NCBI RefSeq assembly: GCF_000213805.1
Contig: NC_015556.1
Coordinates: 3,053,001 to 3,117,000, forward strand
DNA: 64,000 bases
Origin: Pseudomonas fulva 12-X
GTDB lineage: Bacteria; Pseudomonadota; Gammaproteobacteria; Pseudomonadales; Pseudomonadaceae
Direction of reading: 5' to 3'
In this document: one piece after another, positions 4,572-20,494 of the stretch
Layout: each line of letters begins with the position of its first letter
Numbering within the stretch: the first letter of the stretch is position 1
Program-made: the position numbers and the translations under genes
The notes under the pieces: generated by a model
Databases searched by the model: none
What the model was told of the DNA's origin: nothing
What the model saw: the letters and a program-made list of their open reading frames with translations, nothing else

Positions 4572-6692
4572 TCAGGGATTAACGACGTTATCGACGGGTT
4601 CGATACTGCCCGCACGCACGGAGGCGGCGAACTGGGAAATCATTTGCTGCACCAGCGGATCGTTCTGGATCGACGCCTCGGCCTCACGCTGGCGATTGGC
4701 GCGCTTGCGGGCGGCGGCCTGGGCCGGGGTTTCCTGCTCGGGCTTGATCAGCTCGATGCTCAGCTGCAGCTCGCGGCCATGGTAGGCGTTAAGCGCATCA
4801 TTCAGCCGGCGCTGCTGGGTGGCGTTGAACAGTGCACTGTGACCGGGGTCCAGGTGCAAGAGCCACTTGTCGCCTTCGGCGGCAATCAACGTGCAATTGG
4901 CGGCGATGCTGCCGGTCATGCCGCTCAGGCCGAGCTTGGGGAAAATTTCCAGCCACTCGGCGGCCAAACCCGTGGCTGGCATCGCGGCCGGCTCCGGCTC
5001 TGGTTCGGCTTGGGGCTGATCATCGCCGAGCGCATCGGCGAAATCGTAATCCAGGTTGTCGACGTCCATCGCCACGTAGTCGTAGTCGCCGGGTGGCGGC
5101 TCGTCATCGCTGTCCGGCGGGTTGAGGTCGCTGGTGTCGATAACCGGTACCTCGGCCAGCTCCGGAACGGGCAGCTCGGCGACAGGTTCGGGCTGCGGCT
5201 CGGCTACGGCGGCAGGCTGTTGCGGCGCGGGTGCTGCGGCGACCGGCTCGGGGGACGGCGCAGGCGCATGTACTGGTGCTGGCGCTTCGCTGACCGGCGC
5301 GACGGGAGCCGCGGGCTCGGCTGCGGCGGGCAGCTCTTCCCACGGCGGCGTGACGGCCGGTACCGTGGCAACGGGTGCAGCCACTGCGGGCGCAACGACA
5401 ACTGGCGCAGCGGGCGGCTCGACAGCGGCCGGCGACGGCTGGCTGGGCGCGACTGCTTGAACTGGCGCGGCTGGTTCCTGAGGCGCAGCGCTGGCAATGG
5501 CTGGCGACGCAGCAAGTGCTGCGTCGGCCACCGGGGTTACCTGGGGATCAGCCTTGGCCTGGCTGATCCCCAGTGGCTTTAGCGCCACCTTCGGGGCATC
5601 GCCCTCGCCGGCCGGCCTGAATGCCAGCATGCGTAGCAGCACCATCTCGAAGCCGCTACGCGGGTCCGGCGCCAGCGGCAGGTCGCGGCGGCCGATCAGG
5701 CCCATCTGGTAATAGAACTGTACGTCTTCGGCGGGCAGCGCCTGGGCCAGGCCCAGCACGCGTTCGCGGTCGCCCTGGCCATTGTCCACCGCATCAGGCA
5801 GCGCCTGGGCGATGGCCACGCGGTGCAGCACGTTGAGCATCTCGGCCAGCACGCCACTCCAGTCCGGCCCCTGCTCGGCGAGCTGACGCACCGCTTCGAT
5901 CAGGCCGCGGGCGTCGCCTTCGATCAGCGCATGCAGCACGCCATACACCTGACCGTGGTCGAGGGTGCCGAGCATGGAACGCACGTCCGCCGCCAGCACC
6001 TTGCCCTCGCCAAAGGCGATGGCCTGGTCGGTGAGGCTCATGGCGTCGCGCATCGAGCCGTCGGCAGCGCGGCCGAGCAGCCACAGTGCGTCGTCCTCGA
6101 AGGGAATGTTTTCGGCGCCCAGTACATGGCTCAGGTGCTCGACCACGCGCTCGGGCGGCATGTTCTTCAGGGAGAACTGCAGGCAGCGCGACAGCACGGT
6201 GACCGGCAGCTTCTGCGGGTCGGTGGTGGCGAGCAGGAACTTGACGTGGGGCGGGGGCTCTTCGAGCGTCTTGAGCAGCGCGTTGAAGGAGCTGGTGGAC
6301 AGCATGTGCACTTCGTCGATCAGGTAGACCTTGAAGCGCCCACGGCTGGGCGAGTACTGCACGTTGTCGAGCAGCTCGCGGGTGTCCTCCACCTTCGTGC
6401 GGCTGGCGGCGTCCACTTCGATCAGATCGACGAAGCGCCCCTCATCGATCTCCCGGCACACCGAACAGGTGCCGCAGGGCGTGGAGCTGATTCCGGTTTC
6501 ACAGTTCAGGCACTTGGCGATGATGCGCGCGATGGTGGTCTTGCCCACCCCGCGGGTGCCGGTGAACAGGTAGGCATGGTGCAGGCGCTGGCTGTCGAGG
6601 GCGTTGATCAGCGCTTTCAGCACATGGGTCTGCCCGACCATCTCGCGAAACGAACGCGGGCGCCATTTGCGTGCAAGAACCTGATAACTCAT
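4572..6692 (-). CDS. dnaX: DNA polymerase III subunits gamma/tau
   Basis: Clamp-loader ATPase that also couples core polymerases and helicase at the fork. It has 706 aa. The AAA+ N-terminus has Walker [10 protein letters not shown] (residues 45-53), zinc-binding cysteines at 64, 73, 76 and 79, a Walker B stretch YLIDEVHML and the sensor LSRC. A Pro/Ala/Glu-rich linker of about 170 residues (roughly 375-550) precedes the conserved tau C-terminal domain ending [17 protein letters not shown] see no run of six A followed by G that would serve as the E. coli-type slippery site, so a frameshifted gamma form is not supported here. Confidence 0.97.
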
Positions 6693-13421: not shown

Positions 13422-16160
<2,739 letters not shown>

Positions 16161-16489: not shown

Positions 16490-18055
16490 ATGCGTAACAA
16501 CCAGCCCATCACCGGTAACGAGCGGACTTTCCCGGCGCAGCAACGCCTGATCTCGACCACCGACCTCAAGGGCCAGATCACCTACTGCAACGAAGCCTTC
16601 ATCGAGATCAGCGGCTTCTCCCGCGACGAGCTGATCCGTGCGCCGCACAACCTGGTGCGCCACCCGGACGTGCCGCCCGCCGTGTTCGCCCATATGTGGG
16701 AAACCCTGAAAGCCGGCCGACCATGGATGGGCATCGTCAAGAACCGCTGCAAGAATGGCGACCACTACTGGGTCAACGCCTACGTGGTGCCGGTGCTGGA
16801 TGATGGCAAGGTCACCGGCTACGAGTCGGTGCGCAGCAAGCCCACTGCCGAGCAGGTGCAACGTGCCCAGGCGCTCTACGCCCGCATCAACGCCGGCAAG
16901 GCAGCGATCCCCAGCCGCGACCGCTGGCTGCCGGTGGTGCAGAACTGGCTGCCGTTCATTCTGGTCAGCCAGGTCGGCTTTCTGGTCGGCGCCTGGCTGA
17001 ACAGTACCTGGGGCTTCGTCGCCGCCGCCGCGCTGTCGATTCCTCTCGGCCTGCTCGGCCTGGCCTGGCAGAGCCGCGGTATCAAACGCCTGCTGCAACT
17101 GGCCGAACAAAGTACCTCCGACCCGCTGATCGCCCAGATGTACACCGACAACGGCGGCGTCGAAGGCCGCCTGGAACTGTCCATCCTCAGCCAGGAAGCA
17201 CGCCTGAAAACCTGCCTCACCCGCCTGCAGGACAGCGCCGAGAACCTCGCCAAGCAGGCGGCCCAGGCCGACGTGCTGGCCCACAACAGCTCCACGGGGC
17301 TACAGCGCCAACGCGAGGAAACCGACCAGGTCGCCACTGCCGTCAACGAAATGGCCGCCACCACCCTGGAAGTGGCCAACAACGTGGCGCGCACCGCCAT
17401 CGCCACTCAGGAAGCCAACCGCCTGACCCAGCAAGGCCGCGGCATCGCCAGCGAAACCCGCGAAGCGATCCAGCGCCTGTCCCTGTCGGTGGGCGAAACC
17501 GGCGAAACCGTCACCCGCCTCGCCCAGGACAGCAACGAGATTGGCGGCGTGGTCGACGTGATCAAAGGCATCGCCGACCAGACCAACCTGCTGGCCCTCA
17601 ACGCCGCCATCGAAGCCGCCCGAGCCGGCGAAATGGGCCGAGGCTTCGCCGTGGTCGCCGACGAAGTCCGCTCCCTGGCGCAACGCACCGCCGAATCTAC
17701 CGGGCAGATCCATGCCCTGATCGCCAAACTGCAACGCACCGCCGACGAAGCCGTGCTGACCATGGATATCGGCCGCAAACAGGCCGACGAAGGCGTCGAA
17801 CGCGTACAACAGGCCGACCAGGCCCTGGCCGGGATCAGCGACGCGGTAGCCAATATCAACGAAATGGCCGACCAGATCGCCGCCGCCGCCGAAGAACAAA
17901 GTGCCGTGGCCGACGAAATCAGCCGCAATATCACCACCATCGCGCAGCTGTCCGATCAGACGGCCGGCGAGGCGCAAAGCACGGCGTTGTTGAGTGAGGA
18001 GCTCACAAGTACGGCGCAGGGGCAGTATTCGTTGGTGGCGCGGTTTAATCGGTAG
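16490..18055 (+). CDS. aer: aerotaxis receptor (PAS-MCP)
   Basis: Membrane-anchored energy/oxygen taxis transducer signalling through CheW/CheA. It has 521 aa. The N-terminal FAD-type PAS domain (residues about 15-115) holds the Aer signature [15 protein letters not shown] short hydrophobic anchor lies at about 150-195 ([15 protein letters not shown] ... [12 protein letters not shown]), with no periplasmic sensor domain. A signalling domain follows, with the conserved hairpin tip [20 protein letters not shown] near residue 365. It sits downstream of acnA and close to the cbb3 genes. Aer in P. aeruginosa is Anr-controlled, but no Anr box is evident here. Confidence 0.95.
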
Positions 18056-18088: not shown

Positions 18089-18144
18089 CGCTGGCCTTAC
18101 GCCCGGGGACGACGTCAGGCTCGGCACCTATCGACATACCGAAA

Positions 18145-18239
18145 GCGTGGTGTATAACTCGCCAAGCATCCCAGCACCTCGCTGTATGTCGCGAGCTAGA
18201 CGGGCTCGGCAAAAGGGCATGGGATGTTGTACACCACGC
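18145..18239. repeat. imperfect two-stem palindrome upstream of the cassette array, possible attI-region remnant
   Basis: GCGTGGTGTATAAC (18145-18158) pairs with GTTGTACACCACGC (18226-18239) with one mismatch, and CATCCCA (18167-18173) pairs with TGGGATG (18220-18226). A related direct copy, GTTATGCACCAC, lies at 18253-18264. These GTT-headed motifs precede the first cassette core site at 18281. The structure is seen directly; the attI reading is inference. A decayed attC or an unrelated repeat is equally possible. Confidence 0.4.
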
Positions 18240-18294
18240 CCCGTCCGGAAAAGTTATGCACCACTTGGTGTCTATTTATAGTTAGAGCTACGCA

Positions 18295-18558
18295 ATGAAT
18301 CTTTGCCAATGTCCATGCTGCGACTACTTCACCCTAGCCGTAGGTGAAGATTATGAAATATGCGCTGTATGCTTTTGGGAGAATGATTACTTTGGTATTG
18401 AGGAACCAGATTTAGAATCAGGTGCAAATCATGGCCTTACTATTCGCCAAGCAAGAGCAAATTTTGCAACCTTTGGGGCATGCCATCCAAGCATGGTTAA
18501 AAATGTCATACGCCCCGAACAAAGAGAAAAATATGCATATAAAACACGTACACTATAG
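18295..18558 (+). CDS. cysteine-rich CPCC-type protein (cassette 1)
   Basis: An 87-aa protein with CQCPCCDYFTL at residues 4-14 and a second pair in CAVCFWEND (residues 23-31). It resembles the CPCC cysteine-rich family, likely a small zinc-binding fold. The central ANHGLTIRQARANFATFGAC stretch is typical of that family. The ATG is only 13 nt after the cassette core site and no clear Shine-Dalgarno is seen. The TAG stop ends just before the attC. Function unknown; such proteins occur in polymorphic-toxin neighbourhoods and cassette arrays. Confidence 0.85.
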   Translation: MNLCQCPCCDYFTLAVGEDYEICAVCFWENDYFGIEEPDLESGANHGLTIRQARANFATFGACHPSMVKNVIRPEQREKYAYKTRTL

Positions 18559-18634
18559 CTCTAACTAGTGGTTTAAATCGTTCACCTCGCTCACTGGGAC
18601 GGGCTAAATCCCGCGCCTTAACCAAACATTAGCC
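18559..18634 (+). mobile_element. attC recombination site 1
   Basis: 76 bp. The left core is CTCTAAC (18559-18565) and the right core ATTAGCC (18628-18634; GTT changed to ATT). The left-arm stretch GTGGTTTAA is complementary to right-arm TTAACCAAA, and the centre holds CTGGGACGGGCTAAATCCCG. It is closely related to the sites at 19123 and 19559. The altered first base of the right core may reduce activity. Confidence 0.88.
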
Positions 18635-18639
18635 ACCCT

Positions 18640-19128
18640 ATGAAAATAATCGAAACGCATCAGTTTCACCTGACAGTATCAATGAGCGATTTAGTGCGTT
18701 GGCGTGGCAACGGCGACGATGACTTTGAGGCCAACACAGAAATTCAGTCGGCAATTGAGTTTTTAGGTCTAGATGTGGACATAAACCATCTATATAAGAA
18801 ATATTTTTATCAAACAGAAATCGGCCAAGGCGATGTATATGCTTTCTTAAACAGGAATGAGCCTAAAAACCTCTTTGCAATTGACATGTACCGAGACCTC
18901 ACGGATCAACTAGACATAGTTTCTATCTTTGTTAGCGCCTCCCCGAAACTAGCTCCAGTCGTCAAGGCCAAGCTAAGAAATTTATTTGATTCGGCTTCAT
19001 GCCAGGTCGCATACGAAGAAGCCAGCAGTCTTCCTAAGCTTCAACAATTGCTTAACAACAATAAATACCCACTCGCCACTGAAGAAAATGGCTATATGCA
19101 GAATTTAATTGTGCAACAGTGCGGCTAA
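18640..19128 (+). CDS. hypothetical protein (cassette 2)
   Basis: A 162-aa soluble acidic protein with no domain I recognise. It has an alternating beta/helix look (HQFHLTVSMSDLVRW, FAIDMYRDLTDQLDIVSIFV, KAKLRNLFDSA) and no signal peptide or membrane span. The ATG begins only 6 nt after the attC1 right core and lacks a visible Shine-Dalgarno. The TAA stop lies inside the R'' core of attC2. Codon use is AT-rich compared with the flanking genes, supporting foreign origin. Confidence 0.8.
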   Translation: MKIIETHQFHLTVSMSDLVRWRGNGDDDFEANTEIQSAIEFLGLDVDINHLYKKYFYQTEIGQGDVYAFLNRNEPKNLFAIDMYRDLTDQLDIVSIFVSASPKLAPVVKAKLRNLFDSASCQVAYEEASSLPKLQQLLNNNKYPLATEENGYMQNLIVQQCG

Positions 19129-19198
19129 CAACTCGTTCAAATCGTTCGCTGCGCTCACTGGGACGGGCTAAAGCCCGCCTCTTAACCAAATGTTAGAA
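19123..19198 (+). mobile_element. attC recombination site 2
   Basis: 76 bp. The left core is GGCTAAC (19123-19129) and the right core GTTAGAA (19192-19198). The central hairpin CGGGCTAAAGCCCG is perfect. It shares CACTGGGACGGGCTAAA with attC1 and most of the right arm CTTAACCAAA. The cassette-2 stop codon is embedded in the left core. Confidence 0.92.
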
Positions 19199-19223
19199 AA
19201 CATCGGAGGCACGTCGAACCTTC

Positions 19224-19538
19224 ATGAGCAAAAAAGCGAAATCCGGAGGCGCTCAAAAACGCCAGCAGGAAAAAGAAAGAGACCTTGCAAAAGCAGAGAA
19301 ACGACGTGCTCTTGAGAAAGAACGAGCAGCAGAGCAGCTTAAAAAGACAGTTAAATTTCTACGCAGCGGAAAAGTAAAACTCAAAAAGAGTAAGCAAAAG
19401 CAAGGCGTGCTCAGCACGTTCACTTCAATGCCATGCCAACCAAAGATCAGAAGAGAAGATGTTGTAATTGATGAACACACTTCACCAAAGAAAGAACAGA
19501 ACCCATATCGCCTCGAAGGTGATACTGGTTGGGTCTAA
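19224..19538 (+). CDS. lysine-rich hypothetical protein (cassette 3)
   Basis: A 104-aa protein. Residues 1-60 are a charged Lys/Glu/Arg-rich helix or coiled coil (KERDLAKAEKRRALEKERAA). The C-terminal half has the ordered stretch TSMPCQPKIRREDVVIDEHT and ends YRLEGDTGWV. A GGAGG sequence lies about 15 nt before the ATG. No enzymatic motif. The basic helical N-terminus could bind nucleic acid, but that is speculation. The stop is 20 bp before attC3. Confidence 0.75.
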   Translation: MSKKAKSGGAQKRQQEKERDLAKAEKRRALEKERAAEQLKKTVKFLRSGKVKLKKSKQKQGVLSTFTSMPCQPKIRREDVVIDEHTSPKKEQNPYRLEGDTGWV

Positions 19539-19558
19539 TAAAATCGAGGTGAATGCTT

Positions 19559-19635
19559 TTCTAACAATGCGCTCAAAGCGTTCACTTCGTTCGCTGGGAC
19601 GGGCTAAAGCCCGTCCTCTTAGCTTAACGTTAGCT
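19559..19635 (+). mobile_element. attC recombination site 3 (last in array)
   Basis: 77 bp. The left core is TTCTAAC (19559-19565) and the right core GTTAGCT (19629-19635). The same centre, CTGGGACGGGCTAAAGCCCG, is present. The sequence after it begins TTAGCTATTC, but no attC with the matching R'' (GAATAGCTAA) follows. The cassette array therefore ends here and chromosomal or decayed sequence begins. Confidence 0.92.
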
Positions 19636-19713
19636 ATTCAAGGAATAGTATTTTGTTTAATTATTCGCCCGGCCTAGATCGATATATTGAGCAAAGACGA
19701 AAGAAGGTAGCAA

Positions 19714-19789
19714 GTAAGGTGGATGACGCTCTTTTCATCCACCATTGCACTCTGAAACTGGTGGACGGATAAAGCGTCGTCCACCCTAC
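19714..19789. repeat. palindromic GTAGGGTGGA-family repeat, copy 1
   Basis: The left end GTAAGGTGGATGACGC and right end GCGTCGTCCACCCTAC are inverted complements with few mismatches. Internal ends TTTCATCCACCATTGC and GGTGGACGGATAAAGC fold similarly. About 76 bp; no coding capacity. MITE-like. Confidence 0.75.
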
Positions 19790-19841
19790 GAAACTGGCTG
19801 ACCACGTACCTCGATTGCTTAATCCAGGGCAACTTTAGCAA

Positions 19842-19929
19842 GTAGGGTGGATGACGCCTTTTTCATCCACCATTGCAATTTTGAAGTGGTGGACGGATAA
19901 GACTTCAGCTACGCGTTTCGCTATCCTAC
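19842..19929. repeat. palindromic GTAGGGTGGA-family repeat, copy 2
   Basis: GTAGGGTGGATGACGCC, then CATCCACCATTGC and GTGGTGGACGGATAAG as in copy 1. The right end has decayed (CGCTATCCTAC). It lies 52 bp from copy 1. Together with attC3 these elements fill the gap 19539-19999. Confidence 0.7.
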
Positions 19930-19999
19930 AAACCTTAGGTAATGCATGCCTGACGATGTTTTGGACTCTCCCCTTCAAACAGTGCCTAAGGTCAACTCA

Positions 20000-20494
20000 A
20001 TGCTCACCCACAACACCCTTAAATACAAAGCCTGGGCAGACCGTCGAACGCTGGACGCGGTCGCTCAACTCGATCCATTGGCGCAGTCCGAAGCGCTGGC
20101 CTTCGCGCGGCAGCAGCTCAACCATATGGTTCGAGTTGAAGAGCTGTTTCGCGCACGGTTGCTTGGGGAGCCGGCGCCCCATGACAGTACCAACACCGAT
20201 ACCCTGCCCCAGCTCGATGAGCTGGATCGCCGGCTGATGGCGGCCAATCGGTGGTTGGCCGCGTACCTCGATGGCCTCACGCCTGGGCAGCTTCAGGAGC
20301 CTATTCGCTTCGTTTTCGTGGATGGCAAGCAGGGCATGCTGAGCCGTGAGGAAGCGATCTTTCATCTGGTCAACCATGGCACCTATCATCGCGGCGCCAT
20401 CGGCCATGCCCTTGACCGGGCGGACGGCAACCGACCCGCCGACACCTACACGGTGTTTATTCATGAGTCAGAGCCTGAGCGTAGAAACGCCTGA
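20000..20494 (+). CDS. DinB-family protein (putative metal-dependent enzyme)
   Basis: A 164-aa four-helix DinB/YfiT-like protein. The family's three metal-binding histidines are visible: one in QQLNHMVRVEELF and two in HLVNHGTYHRGAIG. The start MLTHNTLKYKAWADRRTLDAV matches the usual family N-terminus; an ATG 54 bp upstream would add an atypical leader. Family members use bacillithiol, mycothiol or other thiols, or are uncharacterised, so the substrate is unknown. It is the first of a run of small plus-strand genes after the cassette array. Confidence 0.88.
   Translation: MLTHNTLKYKAWADRRTLDAVAQLDPLAQSEALAFARQQLNHMVRVEELFRARLLGEPAPHDSTNTDTLPQLDELDRRLMAANRWLAAYLDGLTPGQLQEPIRFVFVDGKQGMLSREEAIFHLVNHGTYHRGAIGHALDRADGNRPADTYTVFIHESEPERRNA

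Follow-up and report, generated by a model that had tools for sequence, protein, structure and literature searches.

Chromosomal integrons with attC sites of about 76 bp occur on the stutzeri/alcaligenes/mendocina side of Pseudomonas. One example, that of P. stutzeri Q, is cited in the accessible part of PMC8876359. Clusters of attC sites lacking an integron integrase are called CALINs, a term of the IntegronFinder program (PMC9024848 and PMC8618304, both available in part); according to the accessible text, the program seeks attI only for class 1. Off-target insertion, loss of intI, and rearrangement are the routes to a CALIN named in the available portion of PMC8618304. In Xanthomonas, position-conserved CALINs have been described, and a functional IntI can mobilise CALINs in trans (PMC12444791, accessible text). 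In the open-access literature, which leaves most subscription journals outside its scope, no attI without intI was found as the dock of an array; this literature included the accessible parts of PMC9024848, PMC12444791, PMC9892861, PMC12901181, PMC3607928, PMC8876359, and PMC8618304.

The window analysed here is a stretch of 64,000 nucleotides from the chromosome of Pseudomonas fulva 12-X (NC_015556.1, positions 3,053,001 to 3,117,000). Its cassette array resembles a CALIN in having at least two attC sites and no intI nearby; however, CALINs are defined by attC alone, whereas this array keeps an attI, found at the same place in ten genomes. With the chromosomal integrons of Pseudomonas it shares attC sites of about 76 bp that are alike within the genome and an attI of the kind found beside the intI of relatives, but intI is absent from this genome and attC sites lie at three separate loci. 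The Xanthomonas CALINs are comparable in that they lack an integrase and recur at particular loci away from the intI locus; no attI is reported for them in the accessible text of PMC12444791, whereas the window array has one. Cassettes away from intI are likewise known from insertion at attG sites (PMC12901181 and PMC12444791, available in part), but attG is described there as diverging from attI, and the site in the window is an attI.

Cassette Array Between the Aer-Type and DinB-Family Genes

The array spans positions 18282-19629 and consists of three cassettes in a single orientation with one ORF each, occupying the interval between the stop codon of an Aer-type gene (18055) and a DinB-family gene (19946). 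The coordinates are listed in Table 1. The three attC sites of 76-77 bp, one per gene and all in one orientation, lie where the original prediction had placed them. The second was located by eye and had been missed by the pattern search. The covariance check proposed there was carried out with our own model R2 and bore out all three sites (85, 95, and 78 bits); the 32 attC sites behind R2 include five from this genome, which match by construction. A genome scan with R2 gave nine attC sites at three places, one of them weak (E 0.02). Those outside the window were four of the same kind at 1.9699-1.9721 Mb and, on the minus strand at 0.525-0.527 Mb, one good and one weak site. The exact core CTGGGACGGGCTAAA has four copies in the genome, three in the window array and one in the second array (1.972 Mb).

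Table 1. Features of the cassette array and its flanks (positions in the window).
Feature	Position	Strand	Evidence and remarks
Aer-type gene, left flank	16490-18055	+	PAS and MCP signalling domain
Orphan attI, type alpha	18142-18286	+	Profile E 1.3e-26, model 17-160 of 162; alignment
Left conserved motif GGTGTATAAC	18149-18158	+	Alignments; beside intI, abuts the intI start codon
First putative integrase-binding repeat GTTGTACACC	18226-18235	+	Alignment; GTTATACACC or GTTATCCACC in most relatives
Second putative integrase-binding repeat GTTATGCACC	18253-18262	+	Alignment; presumed role
Cassette 1	18282-18628	+	ORF 18295-18558, 87 aa, CPCC family PF14206
attC 1	18559-18634	+	76 bp; covariance model 85.4 bits
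Cassette 2	18629-19192	+	ORF 18640-19128, 162 aa, no family match
attC 2	19123-19198	+	76 bp; covariance model 95.1 bits
Cassette 3	19193-19629	+	ORF 19224-19538, 104 aa, lysine-rich, no family match above cut-off
attC 3	19559-19635	+	77 bp; covariance model 78.0 bits
DinB-family gene, right flank	19946-20494	+	

In the attC alignment, 87.0% of the cells at the canonical R''/R' and L''/L' pairs can pair; sliding the partner by 1-3 columns lowers this to 46.4% or less. When letters were shuffled between attC sequences, 60 of 500 shuffles reached the observed pairing, so this measure gave no separation; the observed value for pairs changed on both sides was reached by 3 of 500. Single-strand DNA folds of the three attC bottom strands were not convincing singly (z of 0.24, -0.70, and -3.50). 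Pairing in attC is backed by the slid controls, not by the letter shuffles or single folds.

As predicted, the start of each window cassette is complementary to its own R'' (3/3, by eye). In a bulk test of the window and related arrays, 70 of 94 cassettes matched at all three variable positions, far beyond chance, since 2000 shuffles gave a mean of 9.5 and a maximum of 19. The accompanying statement that such a match arises only from a once circular cassette was too strong, 24 of the 94 cassettes not matching fully. Homologues of cassettes 1 and 2 were found on different contigs of genome G177, at 88% identity and with other neighbours. The match to cassette 1 opens at the cassette start (18282) and closes where attC 1 does (18635); the match to cassette 2 begins within the preceding attC (18562) and reaches into that cassette's own attC (19133). 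Eight cassette proteins of this genome gave no PADLOC match at E 0.01, and Rfam gave no more than four sub-threshold matches at the array locus. A sigma-70 consensus scan of 1.9 kb, run as a search for a Pc promoter, found one match against 2.6 expected and none inside attI.

An integron integrase above the cut-off (TIGR02249) was absent from the whole single-contig 4.92 Mb genome, which upheld the predicted lack of intI. Five sub-threshold stretches belonged to XerD, XerC, and a 443-aa recombinase (28 bits against a cut-off of 265). A hidden intI near the window array was rejected; neither similarity nor an integrase-profile match was found beside the orphan attI. Of the parts of a complete integron, the locus has an attI beside the first cassette and no intI gene.

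Orphan attI Site of the Window

The attI preceding cassette 1 was assigned to type alpha (the types alpha, beta, and gamma, the clade names A and B, and the locus names are our own labels). Its counterpart elsewhere is the stretch from the intI start codon to the first cassette. When this segment was searched against 398 genomes of the genus, 56 gave a match at E 0.01. Some matches were nearly whole and others covered approximately the last 68 bp, several of the latter directly adjoining intI. Nearly all aligned attI end at G|TTA, with A|TTA in G394 and one other. From this common end point and from the motif GGTGTATAAC, which abuts the intI start, the segment is interpreted as an attI plus the region normally found between attI and intI, intI itself being absent here. 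The cleavage point G|TT falls between 18281 and 18282, exactly where cassette 1 begins. Given this junction and the attI homology, the locus is regarded as an integron platform that keeps its attI without intI. The array is therefore more than a bare attC cluster: the original reading as a CALIN holds for an array without integrase but was incomplete, having overlooked the retained attI and two further attC loci.

Over its last 68 bp, the window attI is 85-91% identical to attI sites of G001 and G147 that stand beside intI or a remnant of it. In both genomes, the same Aer-type gene is followed by a conserved segment of approximately 140 bp, G|TTA, and other cassettes. Strain PA27 has 161 identical bases at attI. 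The profile R1 was built from 33 attI sequences of the first attI search, the window attI included, so the E-values of its members are not independent. The repeat at 18226-18235 is presumed to bind integrase by analogy with attI direct repeats. The window has an altered form of this first repeat and two extra bases between the repeats, changes that would be expected with no integrase left. Searching a plasmid collection with attI gave no match at E 0.01. An inverted repeat in the attI core (18258-18279; GCACCACTTGGTGT then CTATTTATAG) was picked up by a terminator scan, in which two such sites were found against 2.4 expected.

Comparison of the Locus in Related Genomes

Ten genomes in two clades have an orphan attI after the same Aer-type gene: clade A with this genome, G147 (P. 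straminea), G001 (URMO17WK12:I2), G358 (P. punonensis), and G394, and clade B with G303, G369, G113, G063, and G248. Over approximately 3 kb upstream, identity is 90.8-94.7% among clade A genomes and about 81-86% when the two clades are compared. All five clade A genomes have 214-226 bp between the Aer stop codon and the junction; in clade B, the distance is 274-278 bp in four genomes and 1947 bp in the fifth, G248. In none of the ten genomes was intI similarity or an integrase-profile match found beside the Aer-locus orphan attI.

The near strain PA27 carries the same three cassettes, and one 9.2 kb alignment at 96.8% identity spans the array. P. straminea G147, URMO17WK12:I2 (G001), P. punonensis G358, and G394 have other cassettes in the same interval; the comparison of sister strains suggested in the original prediction thus showed that these are not fixed vertical genes. 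Related orphan attI were found behind a helicase gene (DEAD_2, Helicase_C_2) in G270, G177, G064, G063, G008, and G324. Among these 16 orphan loci (ten Aer and six helicase), no two have a first cassette in common. The first cassette of G001 is the second of G394 (87% over 337 bp), a weak protein-level match of 33 residues connects G270 with G248, and the remaining first-cassette matches are attC-sized. Distal parts of the arrays are common to some pairs of loci. Docking at attI predicts this pattern, in which arrays vary next to attI and have their far ends in common. An identical 116-bp stretch occurs at contig ends in both orphan loci of G063 (L151 6029-6144 and L152 3-118); it represents either a cassette that both arrays carry or overlap in the assembly.

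The Aer and helicase orphan sites have approximately 25 bp in common to the left of the start-codon position, which are not present in intI-linked sites; this points to one orphan form that may have been copied to two places. An exact empty site, although predicted, was not found; G164 and Pseudomonas sp. G34 have no attI in this interval, where attC-like sequence is present. In G012, G078, and G202, the left part of the element was seen by eye at the apparent Aer locus, cut before the junction and without attC. The Aer-DinB interval of P. seleniipraecipitans LMG 25475 (L111 7932-8930) contains a beta-type attI, an N-terminal intI fragment, and one cassette; a local integrase therefore existed at this locus at least once. 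The platform type in the interval thus differs between species, beta in P. seleniipraecipitans and alpha in the window.

In clade A, identity between genomes is 0.93 for the attI core and 0.91 for the first repeat, compared with 0.57-0.60 in the neighbouring columns; the contrast is weak in clade B (0.86 and 0.91 against 0.63-0.85 in the surroundings). The orphan attI were compared by lineage with four intI-side sites, of which only that of G369 stands by an intact intI. The 3' half in clade B showed an identity of 0.82-0.93 to the intI-side attI of G369 and 0.68-0.75 to those of clade A, and that in clade A showed 0.70-0.88 to its own intI-side attI and 0.64-0.74 to that of G369. Such matching would fit selection for the integrase of the lineage and, equally, gene conversion. 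In the 5' half, by contrast, the orphan sites cluster with one another, with identities of 0.58-0.65 between the clades and 0.40-0.53 to intI-side sites.

Distribution of Orphan attI in the Genus

Two samples of the genus, with 199 and 398 genomes, were taken by even sampling of a larger group. The R1 profile matched at E 1e-4 in 83 of the 398 genomes. Those attI hits with nhmmer E <=1e-5 and flanking sequence, the other hits of the 83-genome listing being left out, numbered 100 in 70 genomes: intI lay beside 20, an intI fragment of 40-550 bp beside 32, and neither beside 48. Hits were placed in the first class when intI similarity extended over 800 bp or more; the split G001 gene and the disrupted one of G185 count among them. 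An attC was present within 4 kb of 16/20 hits with intI, 18/32 with a fragment, and 30/48 without intI similarity; these counts are minima, the flanks being of unequal length (44-6714 bp downstream). An integrase-profile search upstream of 54 orphan stretches, one of them a reverse-strand shadow and the G272 site left out, gave no match, with a profile that missed 10 of 30 intI-side stretches.

An orphan attI with attC and a full-length intI elsewhere were found together in 12 of the 32 genomes listed with full-length intI (G028, G060, G154, G177, G242, G248, G260, G266, G324, G369, G379, and G381), flanks having been taken for part of the 32. In five of them (G028, G177, G248, G266, and G324), full-length intI and orphan attI differ in type, while the remaining seven have an alpha-type attI beside the full-length intI; in G369 and G381, the type of the full-length intI matches the orphan attI. 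In G248, 394 kb of one contig separate the orphan attI from the intI, which is of the other type. An integron may be broken up in a draft assembly; the genomes assembled as single contigs are this one, G248, G266, and G381. With full-length intI and orphan attI apart in several genomes, docking in trans is directly testable. No intact intI was found in clade A, the gene being absent or not intact in this genome, G147, G358, and G394 and split in G001. When 17 genomes were compared internally, a cassette clearly shared between orphan and intI-side arrays was found only in G147 (85%), and hence there is no sign of recent traffic between the arrays; the identical stretches of G063 and the near-identical ones of G260 lie at contig ends.

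Divergent orphan attI were observed at the end of a repeat at five loci, L221, L233, and L234 of G185 and L217 and L223 of G242. The three repeat copies of G185, approximately 1.3 kb long, are 77-93% identical. A C4 antisense RNA and its targets occur at all five loci.

Second Platform and Third attC Locus in the Genome

A second integrase-less array lies behind an MMPL-family gene at 1969.4-1972.1 kb (L014 14380-17077) and has a gamma-type attI at its left end. Aligned with the attI beside the G164 integrase, this site scored 67; the best of 500 shuffles reached 28. The same gamma attI was found behind the same MMPL-family gene in 4 of 11 relatives (G358, G147, G001, and G394), although the final 15 bp of the query are left unaligned in G394. 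The matches in the remaining seven relatives extend no further than position 636 of 901. Neither intI similarity nor an integrase-profile match was detected at the gamma loci. The first 1.3 kb of the five gamma arrays have only stretches of 46-62 bp in common. A cassette of the G001 Aer locus and the first cassette of the gamma array of this genome share 91% identity over 470 bp, from which it is concluded that cassettes moved between alpha and gamma platforms. One cassette of the 1969.4-1972.1 kb array encodes an Imm1-like protein (PF14430).

The third attC locus, with a gamma-like attI end, is on the minus strand at 525.4-527.5 kb (L260 4000-6500). Its score against the G164-side attI was 51, the shuffle maximum being 23. 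An ORF of this locus encodes a KAP-family ATPase with a weak likeness to the anti-phage protein QatA (67.9 bits, cut-off 600).

Origin of the Array

The reading that we favour, and consider fairly likely, has the cassettes docking in trans at an orphan attI, in an array that is now frozen in this genome. The integron platform would be reduced to its docking site, the conserved attI (18142-18286), which follows the Aer-type gene and has no neighbouring integrase gene. An integrase encoded elsewhere in the chromosome of the ancestors and acting in trans would have used attI x attC recombination to join cassettes at G|TT, with every newcomer entering directly beside attI, and all integrases would later have been lost from this lineage. 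The different cassettes at the same orphan dock in relatives suggest that an integrase elsewhere once loaded the dock; the three cassettes are probably frozen, with no integrase left in this genome. We infer both catalysis in trans and upkeep of the attI site by selection. In favour of this reading are the attI homology and the G|TT junction, the constant place of the orphan attI in ten genomes, the differing first cassettes at 16 loci, the gamma platform, the 12 genomes with a full-length intI elsewhere, and the conserved attI core and first repeat of clade A. Against it count the differing types of intI and orphan attI in five of those 12 genomes, the weaker contrast in clade B, and gene conversion as another source of the matching 3' halves. 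Loading in trans is a deduction from history, since the locus has an intI relic in P. seleniipraecipitans, clade A has no intact intI, and little cassette sharing was seen. Action in trans as such is not new, being stated in the accessible text of PMC12444791; the orphan attI is the new part. If the favoured reading is true, an attI that outlives its integrase at one position in several species while its cassettes are replaced would add a fourth route to CALINs, on-target docking at an orphan attI, and the rule of one attI per integron would fail in part of the genus.

A complete integron could instead have stood at the locus, loaded in cis by its own integrase and losing intI locally, perhaps several times, with nothing acting in trans; we judge this course rather unlikely. 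It has in its favour the intI fragment beside the beta-type attI in the same interval of P. seleniipraecipitans, the remnants of 40-550 bp beside 32 of the 100 attI hits, and the listing of intI loss as a route to CALINs in the accessible parts of the review PMC8618304 and the IntegronFinder paper. However, no trace of an alpha-type intI was seen at the locus in ten genomes, where tiny remnants could escape a profile that missed 10/30; the left boundary is constant within each clade, the approximately 25 bp shared only by orphan sites would mean one orphan form copied to two places, and different first cassettes follow this shared form. Homologous recombination or gene conversion with an intI-linked array, by which the cassettes would have reached the orphan attI, seems improbable to us. 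The 3' half of the site resembles the intI-linked attI of its own lineage while the 5' half does not (0.40-0.53), and G147 has related cassettes (85%) in both arrays, but the available homology is short (about 70 bp) and single-cassette differences at the attI end, such as the cassette placed first in G001 and second in G394 (87% over 337 bp), look like docking. Off-target insertion into a non-attI site, for which attG offers a general precedent (PMC12901181 and PMC12444791, in the parts available), is highly improbable, being contradicted by homology that identifies the insertion point as attI over approximately 145 bp. Hardly any credence is given to ordinary vertical genes separated by similar repeats: PA27 does have the same array, but sister species have other cassettes in the interval and cassettes 1 and 2 occur elsewhere in G177, while the complementarity of cassette starts and R'', beyond 2000 shuffles, contradicts vertical genes and chance repeats.

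Docking in trans may extend to a distributed integron in some Pseudomonas, a proposal we advance tentatively and with some doubt. One integrase locus would be accompanied by orphan attI docks at fixed inherited positions, with cores matched to the integrase of the lineage, and arrays hundreds of kilobases apart would be filled by one enzyme. Were this true, part of the CALINs would be satellite platforms and not relics.

Other Sequence Features

In the plasmid collection, 79 records match the window array, and the ten listed matches (H1-H10) are single places of 71-78 bp that align to attC. An attC or its remnant interrupted by an insert with inverted-repeat ends was noticed by eye at L014 (approximately 15455-15560) and L067 (approximately 5720-5785). 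Between the array and the DinB-family gene, the window contains two repeats of the TAGGGTGGATGACGC...GTCGTCCACCC type (19706-19796 and 19836-19905), a type that is also present in the sister loci.
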